In this document: positions 7,987 through 50,610 of the stretch, piece after piece | Layout of the letters: every line of letters starts with the position of its first letter | Position numbering within the stretch: the stretch's first letter is position 1 | Made by a program: the position numbers and the translations under genes | From: Apilactobacillus kunkeei DSM 12361 = ATCC 700308 | GTDB lineage: Bacteria; Bacillota; Bacilli; Lactobacillales; Lactobacillaceae | NCBI RefSeq assembly: GCF_001281265.1 | Contig: NZ_JXDB01000011.1 | Coordinates: forward strand, 1 to 64,000 | Direction of reading: 5' to 3' | DNA length: 64,000 nt | Notes under the pieces: model-generated | Databases searched by the model: none | Told to the model about the DNA's origin: nothing | The model's input: only the letters and a program-made list of their open reading frames with translations

Positions 7987-8787
7987 TTATTTAACATTCA
8001 ATTTTACTTCACTAAACCCTTGATTAAATGTTGCTGTCCATTGTCCTTTGGTTAAGTGTGGAGGAAGCAGGAAGGTTCCTGAAGATACTCTTTGACCTGC
8101 CTCTAATCTTAGATCTTGTTCGTCTAGTTTTTTGACCAACCATTGAAGGGCATTCAGTGGATTACTTAATACTTCGGAAGATGATCCAGTCGCAACTTCT
8201 TCACCATCATGTCTTAGTGTAGTTGTAACATTTTCTAAATCATTAAGTGAGAAACTATTAGTATCAAATTCCTCTCCATAGACTACGTATCCGCCAACAG
8301 CAGCATCTGACATGACCATGTACTTAGACAGTGATGGGAACCAATCAGAAAATCTTGAGTCTGGAACTTCTACTCCTGATGACACTGTGGTCTTATTTGC
8401 TAAATCCTCTAGGCTATCGGTTGGCAATAATTGCTCTTTAGCTTTAAAGACCAGCTCAACTTCGGCCAGTGGATCCATAAGTTCACTGTTCAGTGATAAT
8501 GATACCGGTGATTGAACGAAATGTGATTTAACTTGAGCTCCATATAGTGGTTCGTTTGAATCGAACATATCTTGGGTTTGCTTACTAGTCAAACTGACCT
8601 TGTATCCACCAAGATCTTCATCTTTTAATTCCATTAATCTTCTTTGAACTCGATATGACGACTCTTCATCAGACACCATATCTTCCCATTCATCCATTTT
8701 TAATGGTTTCTTGGTCTTGTATGCTTCAAACAATGCGTTGGCTAATCTTTCTTCAGTTGCGGTTAATTCTAATTCAGTAGTTGTCAT
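7987..8787 (-). CDS. 2-keto-4-pentenoate hydratase / fumarylacetoacetate hydrolase family protein
   Basis: 266 residues, the usual length for MhpD-like hydratases. Residues near 105-115 (DPLAEVELVF) and 140-147 (GVEVPDSRF) fit the acidic metal-binding positions of the FAH fold, and the MSDAAVGGYVVYG segment matches the family's conserved 'DN(A)S.GG.V.G' region. Such enzymes hydrate or hydrolyse 2-oxo acids with Mg2+ or Mn2+ in the cytoplasm; the substrate here cannot be told. Start supported by AAAGGAG 9 bases before ATG. It has its own promoter and a T-box leader, so expression should follow the charging of one tRNA. That is odd for this family and hints at a link to amino acid metabolism. 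Confidence 0.8.
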   Translation of the reverse strand: MTTTELELTATEERLANALFEAYKTKKPLKMDEWEDMVSDEESSYRVQRRLMELKDEDLGGYKVSLTSKQTQDMFDSNEPLYGAQVKSHFVQSPVSLSLNSELMDPLAEVELVFKAKEQLLPTDSLEDLANKTTVSSGVEVPDSRFSDWFPSLSKYMVMSDAAVGGYVVYGEEFDTNSFSLNDLENVTTTLRHDGEEVATGSSSEVLSNPLNALQWLVKKLDEQDLRLEAGQRVSSGTFLLPPHLTKGQWTATFNQGFSEVKLNVK

Positions 8788-8928: not shown

Positions 8929-9200
8929 AAAAAAGCGCCCTCAAACCCACACTTAATATGGGTCTAAGGACGCTTCCGCGTGTTACCACCTTTAATTTAA
9001 TAGTCTAAAAAGACTATCCTCTACGTACGGATAAAAATCGATACGCTGTCAACTTAACGGTTGCTACCGGCGCCACTTACTGTTGTTTCAGTGGGCTAAC
9101 TAAAGAATGATAACTTTTAATCAGGTTCGTTATGCTGTCACATCAACCCAGCACTCTCTTAAAACGATTCTGATTAGTTGTTCTTATAATCGCTATTTAT
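8929..9200 (-). ncRNA. T-box leader of the FAH-family gene
   Basis: The T-box core (AGGTGGTAACACGCGG, 8976-8991) is followed by a terminator hairpin (AGCGTCC...GGGCGCT with a T-run at 8929-8935). Upstream is a stem I with an AAGAGAG bulge, a TGCTG/CAGCA distal stem and a TAATCAG/CTGATTA basal stem. By hand folding the 3' side of the specifier loop reads AAC, which would mean Asn. The next base is C rather than the usual purine, so the specificity is tentative (ACC and CCT are alternatives). Confidence 0.88.
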
Positions 9201-9254: not shown

Positions 9255-10892
9255 TTATTTTTTAATAAAAGTTTTCGTATAGTTCCATTGTGGACCAGCA
9301 GTGTTGTGAATAACGTCTTTAACGTAGCTCTTTTGTAGGTAGTAAGTTCTTACTTGATATAGTGGAGAAATTCCTTGATCATCGTTTAGTTCCTTACTTG
9401 CATCGATTAGATCTTGCCAACGTTTGCTTGCATCATTTGCATCTGTAGTGCCAGCCTTCTTTAATAATGCGTTGAACTTAGCATCGTTGTACTTACCAAA
9501 GTTGTAAGGTGTGTTTTGTTCAGGAATTTGTAGGAAGGTAATTGGGTCTTTGAAGTCTCCACCCCATGATGATAGTGAAATTTCGAAGTTACCCTTAGTT
9601 AGATTGTCGTTGGCTAACTTACCCGGAATTGTTCTTAGGTTTAAAGTGAAACCAGGAAGAACTGATTCAAGTTGTGCCTTTAAGTATTGTGTCGCAACTG
9701 GAGTGTTGGCATCATCAGTTGAAGCCATTAATGATAATGACACGTTCTTGATGCCTAATTCCTTTAATCCCTTTTCATAGTAATGTTTAGCTAACTTCTT
9801 GTTGTAAGCTAGCGAGTCTTTGCCGCCTTGTTGGTCAGCAAAATCCTTGCCAGTCTTTGGATCATTAGCTAAACCGTAAGGAACGAATCCAGTAATCTTT
9901 TTGGTGTTAAAACCAAGAATACTTTCGTTTAGTTGATCTCTATCGATTGCTAAAGAGATTGCCTTACGAATGTTTTTGTTGTTAATAATCTTTCTGTTTT
10001 GTTCATCAGGGTCGTTAAAGTTGTAACGTAGGAATGTAGTCATTGAATATGAGTAATCATGCAATTCTGAATTATTCTTGTAGTTCTTTAATTGTTCTGA
10101 TGATAATGCAGTCACATCAATCTTACCTTGGTTGTAAAGGTTCAAACTAGTGGTTGGGTTAGCTACAACAGTGTAGTTAATCTTCTTTAGTTTGATGTCC
10201 TTAGCATCCCAGTAATTATTGTTCTTTACATATGACCAAGTATCATTAGTTCCATTCCATCCCTCAATTGAGAATGGTCCTGAGTAAACCATGTACTTAG
10301 CATTAGTTCCATACTTATCACCATACTTATTAACGATAGCTTTGTCTTGTGGTCCGAATAATGGATAAGCCATCAAGGTCTTGAAGTATGCGATTGGTTT
10401 AGTTAACTTAATTTGAACTGTATGTTTGTTAAGAGCCTTAATCCCTAACTTATCAGGGTTCATCTTACCGTTAGTGATAGCTTCACCGTTTTCAACATCG
10501 TTGAATAAGTATGAGTACTCAGCCTTAGTTGCAGGTTTTACAGTTCGACGCCATGAATATACGAAGTCATTGGCAGTAATGTCCTTGCCGTTACTCCACT
10601 TGGCATCTCTGAGTTTAAATGTCCATGTCTTACCATCCTTACTAGTCTTAGCACTTTGCGCTAAATCTAGTGTTGGTTTTCCATCATCACCAAGCTTGTA
10701 AAAACTACTAAAGGCATTTCCTGTTGATCCATATCCAGTAGATGTTGATATATCTAAAGTACTTAATTGTGATGTGGCTGCTAAATTCAATGTTTGTGTC
10801 TTGGCATCGTTACCGCCTGAATTATTGCCACATGCTGCTAGCGTTACCCCTGCTAACGCTGTCATTGCTGATGCTACTAATAACTTTTTCAT
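9255..10892 (-). CDS. oppA: Oligopeptide ABC transporter substrate-binding lipoprotein (SBP 1)
   Basis: 545 residues, family SBP_bac_5. Lipoprotein signal with lipobox LAAC near residues 17-20 and a low-complexity linker after the Cys. The body carries the typical 'TWTFKLRDAKWSNGKDITANDF' type region (about 90-110) and a GFVPYGLA segment around residue 340. It should be anchored to the outer face of the membrane and capture peptides for an Opp-type permease. No OppB, C, D or F gene lies in this window, so it is an orphan binding protein. AGGAGTG ribosome binding site before ATG. The upstream leader (11112-10938) contains a three-Cys-codon ORF and a terminator, so transcription probably depends on cysteine supply. 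Confidence 0.93.
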   Translation of the reverse strand: MKKLLVASAMTALAGVTLAACGNNSGGNDAKTQTLNLAATSQLSTLDISTSTGYGSTGNAFSSFYKLGDDGKPTLDLAQSAKTSKDGKTWTFKLRDAKWSNGKDITANDFVYSWRRTVKPATKAEYSYLFNDVENGEAITNGKMNPDKLGIKALNKHTVQIKLTKPIAYFKTLMAYPLFGPQDKAIVNKYGDKYGTNAKYMVYSGPFSIEGWNGTNDTWSYVKNNNYWDAKDIKLKKINYTVVANPTTSLNLYNQGKIDVTALSSEQLKNYKNNSELHDYSYSMTTFLRYNFNDPDEQNRKIINNKNIRKAISLAIDRDQLNESILGFNTKKITGFVPYGLANDPKTGKDFADQQGGKDSLAYNKKLAKHYYEKGLKELGIKNVSLSLMASTDDANTPVATQYLKAQLESVLPGFTLNLRTIPGKLANDNLTKGNFEISLSSWGGDFKDPITFLQIPEQNTPYNFGKYNDAKFNALLKKAGTTDANDASKRWQDLIDASKELNDDQGISPLYQVRTYYLQKSYVKDVIHNTAGPQWNYTKTFIKK

Positions 10893-10931: not shown

Positions 10932-10985
10932 AGAAAAAGACCACTGCCCAAGGATAACAATAATGTTAGCCTCAAGCAGTGGTCT
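10932..10985 (-). terminator. Attenuator terminator before SBP 1
   Basis: A perfect 10-bp stem (AGACCACTGC / GCAGTGGTCT) with an inner TAACA/TGTTA pairing and a following T-run (TTTTTCTTTT), located between the cysteine leader ORF and the SBP 1 start. Its position inside the leader marks it as a regulatory terminator. Confidence 0.88.
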
Positions 10986-11034
10986 CTTATTCGTATAACT
11001 CAATTTTTATTAATTTCTGTCAAACTATCTCGAG

Positions 11035-11112
11035 TTACACGATTAAAAAGGTTACCACTTTTGTGCTAACGACAGTTTGACAACAACATGAAATTAACAT
11101 TACGTTCTTCAA
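11035..11112 (-). CDS. Cysteine leader peptide of SBP 1 (CCCQ motif)
   Basis: 25 codons from TTG at 11112 (AGAAGG 8 bases upstream), or 21 from an in-frame ATG at 11100. The ORF carries three consecutive TGT Cys codons (11080-11088) followed by CAA Gln, within MLISCCCQTVV, and ends GTG TAA. The last Cys codon plus CAA ACT (11074-11082) can form a perfect 9-bp helix with AGTTTGACA (11018-11026). The codons at the stop (GTGTAACTC, 11032-11040) can instead pair with GAGTTATAC (10993-11001). The two helices interleave and exclude each other. This is the architecture of a ribosome-stalling attenuator. No experimental family is known to me for this exact leader. Confidence 0.72.
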   Translation of the reverse strand: MKNVMLISCCCQTVVSTKVVTFLIV

Positions 11113-11149
11113 ATGGATAACCTTCTTTCGTACAGATTGATTATCTTGA

Positions 11150-11178
11150 ATAATACATGCTTACAAATGAGAAGTCAA
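11150..11178 (-). promoter_or_regulatory. Promoter of the SBP 1 cysteine leader
   Basis: TTGACT (11173-11178), 17-base spacer, TATTAT (11150-11155) on the minus strand, about 35 bases before the leader ORF. Confidence 0.8.
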
Positions 11179-28980: not shown

Positions 28981-29244
28981 TAAGCGATTGCAATGAGAAA
29001 GTTGAGTAATAACTGATATCAAACAAAGCGAGCTTCGTCTGGTGAAAGGAAGTGCTGGTTAGGTTATGAAAATCCCTTTCGAGCGATGTACTGAACAAAA
29101 AGTAAAGTGCATGGGGAGCGCCCCTTACAGCGTCAGCGTATGTTAGTACGTCAAGGTAGCTTTTTTAAGCTATGAATGTAAGGTGGTACCGTGTCGAATG
29201 ACGCCCTTAGTCTAATTGTAAATTAGATTAAGGGCGTTTTTTTG
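28981..29244 (+). ncRNA. T-box leader of brnQ copy 1
   Basis: T-box core AGGTGGTACCGTG at 29181-29193, followed by a terminator (ACGCCCTTA / TAAGGGCGT with seven Ts). Stem I has GAGTAA near its base and an AGCGAG bulge. Hand folding places TGG-TTA-GGTTA on the 3' side of the specifier loop, suggesting TTA (Leu). The base after the codon is G, as expected. Specificity is tentative. Confidence 0.93.
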
Positions 29245-31519: not shown

Positions 31520-31546
31520 TTTTATATTCAATAAATCAGTTTAAAA

Positions 31547-31806
31547 AAGCGATGAAAAAGCAGAGTAACAATTCGGCTAGTTCAAGAGATTCCCTACTTT
31601 CTGGAAACGGGATAACTACTAAATTGCGAAAGTATCTTTGGAGCTATATACCGAAATTCATTGGAGAGTAACGTATATTGGGTACACCCATTACAGTGTT
31701 AGCGTATGTTAGTACGTGAAGTGGCTAGACTATTTGTCTAGCAATTAAAGGTGGTACCGTGCACAAAGCACCCTTGGTTCAATACGAACTAAGGGTGCTT
31801 TTTTAT
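31547..31806 (+). ncRNA. T-box leader of brnQ copy 2
   Basis: T-box core AGGTGGTACCGTG at 31749-31761 and terminator AGCACCCTT / AAGGGTGCTTTTTT. In stem I, CAATT pairs AATTG and TAGTT pairs AACTA, leaving CTA on the 3' side followed by A, so the specifier reads CTA (Leu). An AAGAGA bulge and a TCCC/GGGA distal stem fit the class. The specifier assignment is better supported here than in copy 1. Confidence 0.94.
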
Positions 31807-45981: not shown

Positions 45982-46022
45982 AAAATAAAAATGTCACCCA
46001 TTATCGGATGACATTTTTATTT
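45982..46022 (-). terminator. Terminator of SBP 2
   Basis: AAAATGTCATCCGA / GGGTGACATTTTT hairpin (minus strand) after the SBP 2 stop. Confidence 0.88.
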
Positions 46023-46023
46023 T

Positions 46024-47640
46024 TTATTTAACGTAAGTTTCAGAGAAATCCCAGATTGGGCCATTTCCGTAAAAACGCACATTATGAATATCGCTCTTAA
46101 TCAATTCAGCTTGAGCTGGTTGGAATAGTGGAATTAGACCTTGGTCATTTAATAATACCTTTTGGGCGTCTACTAAATCGTTCCAGCGTTTTGCTGGGTT
46201 CAAAGCGTCATCGTCATTTGATTTATCAATCAACTTGTCGTATTCAGCGTTACTCCACTTAGCAGTATTCATTGAATTAGTTGAGTATCTAATATTTAGT
46301 GGTGAAATAGGATCACTAATTGATGGACTCCAACCTGTAACTGCTACTTGATATTGGCCACTTAAGAATCTTGCGGTCGCTACTGTGTTTGGAAGTAATG
46401 TTAGATTAACTTTCAAACCAGGTAGCTTAGAAAATTGGTTTTGAATGAATTCAACAATAGGTTTAGCATCATCACCATTATTACTATTAATGGAAATGGT
46501 TAAGTTCTTTTTACCAATTTCACTTAAACCTTTTTTCCATAGCTTCTTAGCTTGTTCAACGTTACCGTTGACTGCGTCAGAAACGCTAGCGTAGTCGTTA
46601 AAGTCCTTACCGTTACGTGATGCCAAAGTATCTGGCACAATTCCACGTGCTTGAGTTGAACCGTTACCTAAAACATCGTTTAGTAGTTCTTTTCTATTGA
46701 TGATTAACGATAGTGCCTTTCTGATGTTAACGTTTCTAAACGCAGGTTCGTTCTTGTTACTTAGTGATAGGTATCTTACACTGTAAATCTTTCTTAAATG
46801 GAAGTCCTTTGAGTTCTTGTAGCTGCTATATTGTTGCTTACCAACTAAAGTAGTTTGATCTAACTTACCGCTTTGGTATTCGTTCAAAGCAGTTTGTGGG
46901 TCCTTGATTACTGTGTACTTGATGCTGTCAAGTTTTGTCTTGTCAGCATTGTAGTATTCCTTGTTCTTGGTTAAAGTCCATGAATCGTTAGTACCAGTCC
47001 AGTTAGTAATCTTAAATGCACCATTGTATATCATTTTGCTACTTGTAGTACCATAGCTTTTACCGTATTTCTTAACAATGCTTTCTGATTGTGGGTAGAA
47101 CACTGGTAATACTAATAGGTTCAAGAAGTATGGTTGTGGTTTAATTAACTTAATTTGTAGCTTGTACTTACCGATTGCCTTCACGCCCAACTGATCTGGT
47201 GATAGTTGTGACTTAGAGATGGCTGTGTAGTTTTCAATGTTAGCCATGTAGTAAGCTTCTTGTGAAGCGGTCTTTGGATCAGCACTACGTTTGATACCGT
47301 ATTCGAAATCCTTTGCTGTTAATTCTTGGCCATTACTCCACTTAGTGTGTTTCAAATCAAATGTGTATGTCTTACCATCCTTTGAAACATGGTAGCTCTT
47401 GGCGGTTGCTAGACGCACCTTGTTACTACCATCTGGAGATACTAAACCCGAAAAAGCATTATAAACGGCTTGTTGAGTGTTAGTGTCAACAGCTTTTGAT
47501 GGATCAAGTGACGCAATGGATGCGTTGGTCATCCAGTTCAGGTGTTTTTTATTACTTGATTGACTCTTACCACAAGCGGTTAATACCAAACCAAGTAATG
47601 CAGTGGTAACGATGATTGATAATATCCGTGACTTTTTCAT
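46024..47640 (-). CDS. oppA: Oligopeptide ABC transporter substrate-binding lipoprotein (SBP 2)
   Basis: 538 residues from ATG at 47640 (AAAGGAG 7 bases upstream; an ATG two codons earlier is too close). Lipobox LTAC (Cys near 23), SBP_bac_5 fold with YTFDLKHTKWSNGQELTAKDFEYG (about 91-114). Very similar to SBP 3 next door and more distantly to SBP 1. No permease or ATPase genes nearby. The leader upstream (47847-47702) has a three-Cys-codon ORF and terminator, so import of Cys-containing peptides is a plausible role. Confidence 0.93.
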   Translation of the reverse strand: MKKSRILSIIVTTALLGLVLTACGKSQSSNKKHLNWMTNASIASLDPSKAVDTNTQQAVYNAFSGLVSPDGSNKVRLATAKSYHVSKDGKTYTFDLKHTKWSNGQELTAKDFEYGIKRSADPKTASQEAYYMANIENYTAISKSQLSPDQLGVKAIGKYKLQIKLIKPQPYFLNLLVLPVFYPQSESIVKKYGKSYGTTSSKMIYNGAFKITNWTGTNDSWTLTKNKEYYNADKTKLDSIKYTVIKDPQTALNEYQSGKLDQTTLVGKQQYSSYKNSKDFHLRKIYSVRYLSLSNKNEPAFRNVNIRKALSLIINRKELLNDVLGNGSTQARGIVPDTLASRNGKDFNDYASVSDAVNGNVEQAKKLWKKGLSEIGKKNLTISINSNNGDDAKPIVEFIQNQFSKLPGLKVNLTLLPNTVATARFLSGQYQVAVTGWSPSISDPISPLNIRYSTNSMNTAKWSNAEYDKLIDKSNDDDALNPAKRWNDLVDAQKVLLNDQGLIPLFQPAQAELIKSDIHNVRFYGNGPIWDFSETYVK

Positions 47641-47689
47641 ATCCATACTCCTTTGTTCAATAAATACTCTTTACATAGATGGCCATCTA

Positions 47690-47744
47690 AAAAAAGAAAA
47701 AGGGCGTCATGATTCTACGCTAAAAAGCCGAACCATGACACCCC
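47690..47744 (-). terminator. Attenuator terminator before SBP 2
   Basis: GGGTGTCATGGTTC (47730-47743) pairs with GAATCATGACGCCC (47702-47715) including two G-U pairs, followed by a long T-run. Its 5' arm also pairs with the leader ORF (see leader entry). Confidence 0.9.
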
Positions 47745-47775
47745 GTTATAATCTAATTAAAAAACGTCTTCTTGA

Positions 47776-47847
47776 TTAGAATATAAGAATAGAGTTCATG
47801 CTTCGATATTGACAACAACACATTTGTTCTTCGTTAAACATCTTCAT
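47776..47847 (-). CDS. Cysteine leader peptide of SBP 2 (CCCQ motif)
   Basis: 23 codons plus stop, ATG at 47847 with AAGGAGGGG 6 bases upstream. The peptide starts MKMFNEEQMCCCQY; the three TGT codons lie at 47812-47820 and CAA follows, as in the SBP 1 leader. Just after them CGAAGCATGA (47796-47805) is complementary, with one mismatch, to TCATGGTTCG in the 5' arm of the terminator (47729-47738), giving a possible antiterminator. Stop codon about 32 bases before the terminator. No T-box elements are present in this leader. Confidence 0.8.
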   Translation of the reverse strand: MKMFNEEQMCCCQYRSMNSILIF

Positions 47848-47875
47848 TATGAACCCCTCCTTATGATTTATAAGT

Positions 47876-47904
47876 ATAATACATCCGAACGAAATTTTTG
47901 ACAA
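47876..47904 (-). promoter_or_regulatory. Promoter of the SBP 2 cysteine leader
   Basis: TTGTCA (47899-47904), 17-base spacer, TATTAT (47876-47881), about 30 bases before the leader ATG. The -10 is identical to that of the SBP 1 leader. Confidence 0.82.
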
Positions 47905-48037
47905 CCATAAATATTCGATATAATTATCCAAAAAGCACGAACTATTCTTTTTATTTTATAACAATCATAAAAATTATATACGCGACAAAGCTGTCAAACG
48001 TTGATAAATCAACATTTAATATAAAGCTAAAACAAAA
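47905..48037. other. Intergenic AT-rich stretch between SBP 2 leader and SBP 3 end
   Basis: AT-rich, no ORF or structured element recognised apart from the flanking promoter and terminator. Confidence 0.4.
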
Positions 48038-48070
48038 TAAAAGTCACCAAAAATTTTGGCGACTTTTATG
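48038..48070 (-). terminator. Terminator of SBP 3
   Basis: AAAAGTCGCCAAAA / TTTTGGTGACTTTT hairpin after the SBP 3 stop. Confidence 0.85.
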
Positions 48071-48072
48071 AT

Positions 48073-49695
48073 TTATTTAATGTAAGCGTGAGAGAAATCC
48101 CAAACCGGACCATTTCCTAAGTACTTAACACCATGAATATTAGTTTTCATTAGTTCTGGTTGGGCCTTTTGAATTAATGGAATAATTCCTTGATCGTTTA
48201 AGATTACCTTTTGAGCATTTACTAAATCAAAGAAACGTTTATTTTGATTATTAGCATCTTCATTATTCGAACGATCAATGTACATATCATACATTGCGTT
48301 GCCCCATTTAGAAGTATTAATTGGACTGTTTGAAACCTTAGTTTGTAGAGGTGAGATTGGATCACTAATTGATGGATCCCATCCTGAAACTGAAAGTTCG
48401 TAATCAGATTTTAGTGAACGACCAGAAGCGACGTTGTTAGGTAAGATTTGAGCAGTTACCTTTAGTCCTGGAAGTTTATCTAATTCAGTTTGTAAGAATT
48501 CAGTGACAGCACGACTAGTTTGGTCGTTATTATTCATGATCGAGATGGATACTGATTTCTTACCGATTTTCTTTAATCCCTTGGCCCATAGTTGCTTAGC
48601 CTTGGTCAAGTTACCAGTAGTAGCATCTTTAACAGTTGCATAGTCATTGAAGTCCTTACCGTTCATGTAAGCCAAAGTATCTGGAACCAATCCTCTGGCA
48701 GCAAATGAACCGTCTCCTAAAACATTTTGAGTTAATTCTTCACGATTAATTGCTAATGATAAAGCTTTTCTTAAGTTCTTGTTTTTTAGAGCAGGAACTT
48801 TGCTTTGATTAATGGATAGATATTGAACCATAAACTGCTTATGGTTCACAAAATCTTTATTATTCTTGTAGGTGTTAACTTGTTGTTTACCTGCTAATAG
48901 TGTTTGATCCAACTTACCTGATTGGTATTCATCCAATGCAGTTTGTGGATCCTTAATCACTGAATAGTTGATGGCCTTTAATTTCACGTTAGCATTATCA
49001 TAGTAGCCTTTATTCTTGGATAATGTCCAAGCATCGTTGCTACCTTTCCAGTTTTTAACGGCAAATGGACCATCATATACCATCTTATCTGATGTTGTTC
49101 CGTAAGCAGTACCGTATTTTTCAACTAACGTCTTTTGTTGAGGATAAAAGACAGGTAATGCTAAGACATTTATAAAATCAGCTTGTGGTTTAGTTAAAGT
49201 AATTTGCAACTTATTGTCGCCCATTGCTTTAACTCCCAATTTATCAGCTGACATTGAACCTGTCTTCACTTTATCGTAATTCATAATATTAGCCATGTAG
49301 TATGCCATTTGTGAAGCAGTCTTAGGATCAGCGCTACGTTTGATTCCGTACTCAAAATCACCGGCAGTAACCTTCTTACCATTGCTCCACTTAGTGTTTC
49401 TTAAGGTGAAAGTGTAAGTCTTTCCACCATTAGTAACCTTGTAATTCTTTGCAATTGCTAGGTCAATTTTATTTCCTTTATCGGGAGTAACTAAACCACG
49501 CATTGCGTTGTATAAAACTTGATCACTGGTAACATCAACGGCCTTAGAAGGATCTAAAGTGGTCAATGTTGTATTACTCATCCAATTCAATGAATCTGTT
49601 CTAGATGTTGTATCTGATGATTTACCGCAAGCGGCAAGCACCATTGTTGCAGCAATGGCCACTACACCTAGTTTTGCAATTGACTTGAATTTCAT
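48073..49695 (-). CDS. oppA: Oligopeptide ABC transporter substrate-binding lipoprotein (SBP 3)
   Basis: 540 residues, lipobox LAAC (Cys near 23), SBP_bac_5 with TLRNTKWSNGKKVTAGDFEYG (about 96-116) and a conserved SWDPSISDPISPL-type segment near 430 shared with SBP 2. It seems to be the tandem duplicate of SBP 2. Unlike SBP 1 and SBP 2 there is no Cys leader or attenuator upstream; the promoter region is short and ends with GACAGGGGGATGAAC before ATG. It may therefore serve as the constitutive copy, which is an inference. Confidence 0.93.
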   Translation of the reverse strand: MKFKSIAKLGVVAIAATMVLAACGKSSDTTSRTDSLNWMSNTTLTTLDPSKAVDVTSDQVLYNAMRGLVTPDKGNKIDLAIAKNYKVTNGGKTYTFTLRNTKWSNGKKVTAGDFEYGIKRSADPKTASQMAYYMANIMNYDKVKTGSMSADKLGVKAMGDNKLQITLTKPQADFINVLALPVFYPQQKTLVEKYGTAYGTTSDKMVYDGPFAVKNWKGSNDAWTLSKNKGYYDNANVKLKAINYSVIKDPQTALDEYQSGKLDQTLLAGKQQVNTYKNNKDFVNHKQFMVQYLSINQSKVPALKNKNLRKALSLAINREELTQNVLGDGSFAARGLVPDTLAYMNGKDFNDYATVKDATTGNLTKAKQLWAKGLKKIGKKSVSISIMNNNDQTSRAVTEFLQTELDKLPGLKVTAQILPNNVASGRSLKSDYELSVSGWDPSISDPISPLQTKVSNSPINTSKWGNAMYDMYIDRSNNEDANNQNKRFFDLVNAQKVILNDQGIIPLIQKAQPELMKTNIHGVKYLGNGPVWDFSHAYIK

Positions 49696-49881
49696 AAAAG
49701 TTCATCCCCCTGTCTGAAAACTATTTCATCATAATTTTCCACAATATGTTATCAAAAATAGCACATCTAAAAAGTCAATGCAATCAAAAATATCGTGCCC
49801 TAATTATTATAAGTGGCAATTATTACATAAAATGATAGAATATCTATATTATCACAATATTTTAACAAGGGACTGATTCAT

Positions 49882-50610
49882 ATGCGTATTGGAGTTACAT
49901 CAGATATCATCTTTAGTCAGGATGAACCTTTCCGTCAAAGAGAAGGACATTTTGCTCAAAGGACTTTGATGAACTGTTTGCTAGAAAATAACATCACTCC
50001 AGTTATCTTTCCAGTTGGAAAGCCAAGCATGGCTGCCGAATTATTAGAAACTGTCGATGGTGTAATTTTTACCGGTGGTCCAGATGTATTGCCCAAATAT
50101 TACGGCGAAGAACCAATTGCTCAAATTGGTCGTACATTTGAAACCAGAGATGAATTCGAATTAGCGTTAGTTAAGCAAGCAATTAGAATGCACAAACCAA
50201 TCTTAGCAATTTGCCGTGGATTACAAATCGTAAACGTTGCAATGGGTGGAACTTTGTACCAAGACATTGGTGCTCAATTCACCCCACAAAACGGATTACC
50301 TCAATTACAGCATGAACAAAAGGCAATCGGATACTCTCCAGTGCATCACATCAGTATTGATGACGATTCACTATTAGCCAAGACATTTGGCACTCGTGCA
50401 TTTGTCAATTCATTCCATCATGAAGCTGCTAAGGACGTTGCTGAAGGACTTCATGTAGTGGCTCGTGCCGATGATGGTATGATTGAAGGCTTAGAAAATG
50501 ACGACAAGTCAATCCAATGTGTGCAATGGCATCCAGAAAATATGTGGGATCAATACGATGAAGAAAACCAACTATTCGTTGACTTCTTCAACCGCGTTCA
50601 CCACTTCTAG
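49882..50610 (+). CDS. Gamma-glutamyl-gamma-aminobutyrate hydrolase family protein (class I GATase-like)
   Basis: 242 residues, peptidase C26 family. Oxyanion region FTGGPDVLP (about 63-71), nucleophile elbow AICRGLQI with Cys111, LYQDIGAQF, and the His/Glu dyad in QWHPENMW near 217-224. Relatives hydrolyse gamma-glutamyl amides in polyamine or peptide metabolism. GGGACTGATTCAT precedes ATG. Single gene with a shared terminator. Confidence 0.92.
   Translation: MRIGVTSDIIFSQDEPFRQREGHFAQRTLMNCLLENNITPVIFPVGKPSMAAELLETVDGVIFTGGPDVLPKYYGEEPIAQIGRTFETRDEFELALVKQAIRMHKPILAICRGLQIVNVAMGGTLYQDIGAQFTPQNGLPQLQHEQKAIGYSPVHHISIDDDSLLAKTFGTRAFVNSFHHEAAKDVAEGLHVVARADDGMIEGLENDDKSIQCVQWHPENMWDQYDEENQLFVDFFNRVHHF

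Follow-up and report, generated by a model that had tools for sequence, protein, structure and literature searches.

Background

In attenuators of the trp/his type, a leader ORF with its own ribosome binding site (RBS) carries several clustered codons of a single amino acid and is followed by an intrinsic terminator and by an antiterminator exclusive with it, with read-through when the cognate tRNA is lacking. For cysteine, Canestrari et al. reportedly described in 2020 polycysteine leaderless short ORFs of mycobacteria which, going by the title, act in cysteine-responsive attenuation. Leaders of cys operons have also been predicted in Actinobacteria, where conserved terminator hairpins were looked for without success and Rho was suspected (PMC1262725). 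The uORFC-8-2 motif, found before cysS of Rhodobacterales, is described as having tandem Cys codons and an intrinsic terminator, and ribosome-mediated attenuation was proposed for it (PMC8632094). In bacilli, His leader peptides precede two hisS paralogs, where they replace T-boxes; as of 2010 the authors were aware of such systems only in Proteobacteria and Actinobacteria, apart from ermC, and saw the His leader as a novelty for Firmicutes (PMC2965389).

Here we describe two leaders in a stretch of 64,000 nucleotides from Apilactobacillus kunkeei (the window, that is, the whole stretch of DNA that was analysed). Judged from its sequence, each of them is very probably a transcription attenuator of the trp/his type, mediated by the ribosome and responsive to cysteine, that controls an uptake gene. 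With the mycobacterial and actinobacterial leaders they share a short ORF with Cys codons before genes of sulfur nutrition and, by the title, attenuation. They lie outside the leaderless polycysteine family, as far as the title and the cys-operon passages characterize these leaders, since here the ORF is led by a Shine-Dalgarno (SD) sequence and followed by a terminator hairpin; the target is a peptide-binding protein and not a biosynthetic one. The uORFC-8-2 motif is alike in its tandem Cys codons, intrinsic terminator and proposed ribosome-mediated attenuation. It belongs to another phylum, precedes cysS and has its Cys codons inside the first stem, whereas here the first region is the leader RBS and the downstream gene belongs to PF00496. 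The His leaders are likewise ordinary amino-acid leader-peptide attenuation in Firmicutes, but differ in the amino acid (histidine), in the genes and in belonging to bacilli. Finally, the T-box (RF00230) also senses uncharged tRNA and antiterminates, but it binds the tRNA directly and has no ORF; the window has three T-boxes at the gathering threshold, none of them at either Cys leader.

The proposed mechanism is classical, while the lineage, the target and the RBS-closing arm differ from the known systems. It is apparently undescribed in lactobacilli: the preliminary description of this DNA knew of no such attenuator there, and our search of open-licence papers found none, although others may exist.

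Two leaders in one window

The regions are named as follows: 1 is the leader RBS, 2 the part of the leader that follows the Cys codons up to the stop, 3 and 4 the arms of the terminator. The parts of leader 1 are:

47904..47876, minus strand: promoter-like TTGTCA-17-TATTAT, 10/12 match to consensus
47862..47856, minus strand: Shine-Dalgarno AAGGAGG of leader ORF 1, 8 nt before the ATG, from the sequence
47847..47776, minus strand: leader ORF 1, 23 codons, MKMFNEEQMCCCQYRSMNSILIF and stop, from the sequence and 9/9 genus orthologs
47820..47812, minus strand: three Cys codons TGT TGT TGT, then CAA, from the sequence
47864..47839, minus strand: region 1, RBS and start of leader 1, pairs with 47808-47783 (1:2), -17.3 kcal/mol, p 0.008
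47806..47791, minus strand: region 2, post-Cys segment, pairs with region 3 or region 1
47744..47726, minus strand: region 3, terminator 5' arm (hairpin)
47721..47701, minus strand: region 4, terminator 3' arm (hairpin)
47700..47689, minus strand: U-run of the terminator, TTTTCTTTTTTT, from the sequence
47646..46024, minus strand: putatively regulated gene 1, OppA-type substrate-binding lipoprotein (SBP2), PF00496 E 4.5e-75

The primed 23-codon ORF with its three Cys codons and CAA is present just as it had been described, and the gene is indeed of the peptide-binding lipoprotein type. Of the consensus promoter claimed, the sequence stands at 10 of 12 positions; since the region 46000-50000 has 15 such matches and its shuffles average 15.9, this one is weak evidence alone. 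The claimed terminator is a hairpin of -26.7 kcal/mol (47744..47701, GGGGTGTCATGGTTCGGCTTTTTAGCGTAGAATCATGACGCCCT) followed by the U-run, and it was left unlisted by a simple terminator scan, as was the hairpin of leader 2. The fold of 47876-47680 as a whole has a z of -4.13 against shuffles. The complementarity between 47796-47805 and 47729-47738, which had been proposed as an antiterminator, is real and longer than thought: 47806-47791 pairs with 47744-47728 at -17.5 kcal/mol (p 0.002, 1000 dinucleotide shuffles). It had also been argued that three adjacent Cys codons are rare. In the 47 ORFs of the window Cys accounts for 85 of 14368 residues (~0.6%), none adjacent, and a CCC run would be expected ~4e-6 times in an ORF of 23 codons. 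Two features go beyond the preliminary description: the leader RBS is another pairing partner of the post-Cys segment, and the window holds a second copy.

That copy, leader 2 (11132..10935, minus strand), has the layout of leader 1 and also precedes a PF00496 gene. TGTTGTTGT occurs four times in the window against 1.26 expected, and two of the occurrences are the Cys runs of leaders 1 and 2, whose peptides have little in common beyond CCCQ. Its parts are:

11178..11150, minus strand: promoter-like TTGACT-17-TATTAT, 10/12; 3 matches in 401 bases against 2.0 in shuffles
11132..11111, minus strand: region 1, weak RBS AGAAGG and TTG start, pairs with region 2, -21.0 kcal/mol, p 0.001
11112..11035, minus strand: leader ORF 2, TTG start, MKNVMLISCCCQTVVSTKVVTFLIV and stop, from the sequence and genus orthologs
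11088..11080, minus strand: three Cys codons, from the sequence
11070..11046, minus strand: region 2, GUUAGC...GUGGU, pairs with the terminator 5' arm, -19.3 kcal/mol, p 0.016
10988..10935, minus strand: terminator hairpin, then TCTTTTG, -34.1 kcal/mol
10892..9255, minus strand: putatively regulated gene 2, OppA-type substrate-binding lipoprotein (SBP3), PF00496 E 4e-75

Both genes reach about 253 bits with PF00496 (cut-off 32.4), and the NCBIfam matches of SBP2 and SBP3 are far below their cut-offs. Both copies have an ORF with an SD (a weak one in copy 2), a conserved cluster of Cys codons, an intrinsic terminator between leader and gene, and an antiterminator exclusive with it.

OppA-type proteins can import pheromones. 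Given that the short ORF adjoins an OppA-type gene, and that PrgZ is among the matches listed, one could think of a secreted signal peptide that is re-imported by the adjoining protein. In our opinion this is very improbable: no signal sequence was apparent by eye, a terminator separates the ORF from the gene, and the codons after the Cys run take part in RNA pairing.

Two other features of the window may be mentioned here. Directly after the leader 1 terminator lies a palindrome, AGATGGCCATCT (47677-47688), which is exact and in the same place in 9 of 16 genus genomes, even where the flanks have diverged; two of these nine carry one extra copy elsewhere, and the reversed pattern has 0 matches. 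It is a candidate for an operator or for a 5' hairpin of the read-through mRNA. At the window start, the ORF at 11-424 is built of a repeated unit (an example has 15 residues).

Proposed mechanism

We propose that each leader works as follows. With Cys-tRNA charged, the pioneer ribosome would pass the Cys codons, reach the stop and cover part of region 2; with region 2 partly covered, the terminator 3:4 would form and the uptake gene would stay low. With Cys-tRNA short, we infer that the ribosome stalls when the first Cys codon enters its A site, its leading edge being then just before region 2. Region 2 could then pair with the 5' arm (2:3) while the 3' arm has yet to be transcribed, and RNA polymerase would read into the SBP gene. 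Were the leader untranslated, region 2 would fold onto the leader RBS (1:2), which would mean termination by default. The stall geometry is based on the usual ribosome footprint: in leader 1, the leading edge of a ribosome whose A site is at the first Cys codon should be at ~47806, leaving segment 2 free, while a ribosome at the stop codon should cover only the 3' part of segment 2. The SBP may then import Cys-containing peptides, cysteine or glutathione into a cell that has no clear cysteine synthase.

Alternative pairings

To limit close relatives, 26 representatives were hand-picked from 52 leaders, and the pairings were compared with 1000 dinucleotide shuffles of segment 2. Pairing 1:2 has p<=0.05 in 20 of the 26 (6/6 in the genus, 14/20 outside) and pairing 2:3, the antiterminator, in 14 (6/6 and 8/20); the Fisher values, 2e-26 for 1:2 and 7e-15 for 2:3, are overstated because lineages share ancestry. 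The 2:3 duplex is not significant in 12 of the 26, namely the representatives of g24, g5, g16 and g38, two of g21 and one of g23. Neither pairing is significant in both representatives of g24, in G019 (g5) and in G101 (g21), whose start was set too far upstream. At the named loci, 1:2 gives p 0.003 in L. salivarius UCC118, 0.065 in L. intestinalis and 0.003 in L. amylolyticus, and 2:3 is not significant there (0.387, 0.129 and 0.399, respectively). The stretch after the stop, considered as an alternative antiterminator and serving as negative control, pairs with the terminator arm in 0/26. By a loose rule that has no shuffled control, a hairpin with a T-run was found for 52 of 54 leaders (the set without G071 and G029), the exceptions being G066 and G093.

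Leader 2 was aligned over 12 sequences (11 from the genus and G080), with the structure taken from one of them, which favours that structure. Standard pairs make up 95% of the cells in 3:4, 91% in 2:3 and 81% in 1:2; slid by 1-3, the same alignment gives 37-55%, 33-52% and 37-52%. Both-side changes occur in 11 of the 24 pairs of 3:4 (1 to 7 in the slid versions), with no gain over the slid versions for 1:2 (5 against up to 6) and 2:3 (2 against up to 3). Since these last two are within the slid range, covariation favours only 3:4 of leader 2. The alignment of leader 1, with 7 of the 9 sequences (without G009 and LMbo), has 98% standard pairs in 3:4, 98% in 2:3 and 95% in 1:2, and few pairs vary.

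We also simulated a stall at the point where the transcript still lacks the 3' arm. Segment 2 then holds a mean of 0.70 of arm 3 against 0.27 when shuffled, with 50 of 52 loci above their own shuffle mean; the 20 genus loci give 0.80 against 0.25. Without a ribosome the mean is 0.37; the 'stop' value of zero in the simulation is fixed by the script itself. At equilibrium a completed terminator prevails in 47 of the 52 simulated stalls, both window copies among them (0.93 and 0.91), therefore the switch would have to be kinetic.

Conservation in Apilactobacillus

The named relatives of the window are A. kunkeei LMbo (99%), A. waqarii, A. nanyangensis, A. zhangqiuensis and A. quenuiae. Nine of the 16 genus genomes have an ortholog of gene 1 (at least 64% identical), and leader 1 stands before all nine. 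Seven of the peptides are near-identical; the variants are MKFNNVYEINECCCQIPNGELYSFI (G003) and MFNKQFQCCMNKTDFNVFKWIII (A. quenuiae, G009). The preliminary description had named loss of the TGT run with the terminator kept as a result that would speak against its reading, and such a loss was sought in these relatives: the Cys run is retained in 9/9, in one as two Cys codons and in one with a synonymous TGC for the first Cys, while other residues vary. Leader 2 likewise precedes gene 2 at all 11 genus loci fetched.

The upstream stretches of 60 genus SBP genes, and of 7 more, were collected. A further SBP of G008 (L105, 37% to gene 1) has no leader upstream. Among the other upstreams (K set), the leader rule given below finds a CC in 5 of 54, against 0.78 in shuffles; all five are one ORF, MITAVCCSVSK, at least about 300 bases from the gene and with no terminator by eye, and we rejected them.

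Distribution in the Lactobacillaceae

A profile search with the leader peptides in 301 family genomes gave matches in 91 at E<=0.5. One, in G080 (E 0.053), is a real leader; the 16 loci inspected outside the genus (L115-L130) looked by eye like chance frames, and because of this we moved to the regions upstream of SBP orthologs. Relatives of gene 2 at E<=1e-125 are present in 55 of 151 family genomes (17/40 genera), and the set outside the genus consists of the 46 best orthologs, one per genome, from 15 genera. In an order-wide search of 246 genomes, 10 gave SBP3 relatives at E<=1e-140, and all of these belong to the Lactobacillaceae.

As a rule for a leader we took an SD match of at least 4, an ORF of 8-60 codons and adjacent Cys, at most 430 bases upstream. 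Such ORFs precede 34 of the 46 SBP3 orthologs outside the genus, in 12 of 15 genera (shuffles, 1.68/46), and 1 of 20 more distant paralogs (Fisher 2e-7 against 34/46), this one being a 49-residue ORF with one CC. Without two doubtful calls, G073 and G093, the count is 32/46 and 11 genera. G071 is counted through a second short CCC ORF by the gene, its first ORF (MLMQCCC) being below the rule length, and the rule missed Cys-rich ORFs in G029 and G101. It finds no leader before the orthologs of g30 (0/5), g25 (0/4) and g33 (0/1). Named carriers are L. salivarius UCC118 (pMP118), IBB3154 and 2D, Lactobacillus intestinalis DSM 6629 and L. amylolyticus L5 (CCCC), the upstreams of named plasmid records coming from 7 of 40 matching records; no leader was seen in Latilactobacillus curvatus TMW 1.27, nor before the 39% paralog of L. 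plantarum SS6. A cysteine attenuator on peptide-binding proteins is probable in about a dozen genera of Lactobacillaceae. At two loci of g21, L160 and L161, a second short CCC ORF (MAKSCCCWMMTKN and MKKACCCRMLRGSI) lies between terminator and gene.

It could be argued that this is a real attenuator in which the Cys codons are incidental and translation in general is sensed, given that the RBS pairing, significant in 20 of 26 representatives, ties the terminator to leader translation. We think this very improbable. Cys makes up 0.6% of window residues, yet its doublets stand at 34 of the 46 outside loci, while the corresponding counts are 12 for Met, 11 for Ser and 10 for Asn.

The 52 leaders use TGT 163 times and TGC 45 times for Cys. 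Between genera the patterns run from CC to CCCC and include CCxC, CCxCC and CxCC, with few other residues in common. CCxC, CCxCC and CCC resemble metal-binding clusters, and it is conceivable that the Cys cluster works as a peptide and not as codons, a nascent or free peptide that responds to a bound metal or to thiol stress by arresting the ribosome on which it is made. This seems very improbable to us, since the spacing and number of Cys vary along with most other residues, and what replaces the leader at four orthologs is a T-box (see below). Stalling on the Cys codons for want of charged tRNA, as first proposed, would bring about read-through at these loci, and this reading is supported by the conserved Cys run, by the second leader family in other genera and by pairings beyond chance in the genus representatives and in part of those outside.

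T-boxes at orthologous genes

Two of the window T-boxes, at 28984-29211 and 31543-31778 (plus strand), have AUC and GUA in the specifier columns and stand, by eye, before two BrnQ-like transporters; the third, at 8963-9199 (minus strand), lies between gene 2 and a hydratase-like ORF at 7987-8787. At four SBP3 orthologs, L163, L164 and L166 (g30) and L177 (g33), a T-box with AUG in the specifier columns replaces the Cys leader. The reading comes from Rfam alignments, in the columns where the two brnQ T-boxes have AUC and GUA, and by it these four T-boxes look Met-specific. In L163, L164 and L166 the stretch from T-box to gene contains a short ORF with WRGSSRG, similar in all three, e.g. MTRIRFHKIIAWLVFWRGSSRGSKAI (translated by eye).

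The genome has 27 T-boxes, none recognised by eye before a cysS. Reading the specifier by a regular expression succeeded in 8 of the 27; in four of these the specifier agrees with the gene that follows, identified by eye (valS, two brnQ, argG), and in three it disagrees. A GAC specifier before a hisS-like ORF would, we presume, fit only if aspS follows.

It is possible, although we would sooner doubt it than rely on it, that there is a family-wide Cys attenuon of the Lactobacillaceae, a one-shot sensor on a dedicated OppA-type importer of Cys-peptides or glutathione, and that lineages swap the Cys leader for a Met T-box. The sensor would be one-shot in that it reads the pioneer ribosome only, because the segment that switches the terminator would, once emerged, also close the leader's own RBS. 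If the attenuator reading is true, Firmicutes would have a further, widespread leader-peptide attenuator, carried by well-studied strains as well, L. salivarius UCC118 among them. It would present one gene with a sensor that differs by lineage, a Cys leader peptide or a T-box that looks Met-specific. It would also name a signal, cysteine, for otherwise anonymous peptide-binding proteins, and make testable the practical question of which protein feeds cysteine to lactobacilli unable to make it.

Cysteine supply and gene neighbourhood

The genome of the window (G000) has no clear cysteine synthase. Its PALP (CysK) match is weak (E 1.2e-9) and lies in a 513-residue frame which we take for threonine synthase. 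Among the 16 genus genomes the PALP match is strong, of unchecked identity, in two, weak in five and absent in nine, so that 14, G000 included, have no strong match. Cys_Met_Meta_PP is full-length in 4 of the 16; G000 has partial matches only (E 1.4e-8 and 6.6e-5). L. kunkeei MP2 was judged from its genome to be auxotrophic for methionine or cysteine (PMC4841242), and in Listeria the OppA-like CtaP has been linked with the transport of cysteine (PMC10269559).

As for the neighbourhood, sufC and sufD follow the gene in three L. salivarius records, two of which have a cysteine desulfurase within the stretch read. G037 has by eye the same-looking genes after the gene, and G014 has a SUF-like cluster ~1.6 kb upstream; no SUF cluster was seen in seven other genome neighbourhoods nor in four other plasmid records. 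The loci with SUF clusters, on L. salivarius megaplasmids and in G037 and G014, are L266, L267, L271, L265 and L149. In G030, metQ/N/I-like genes (by eye) are ~2 kb away.
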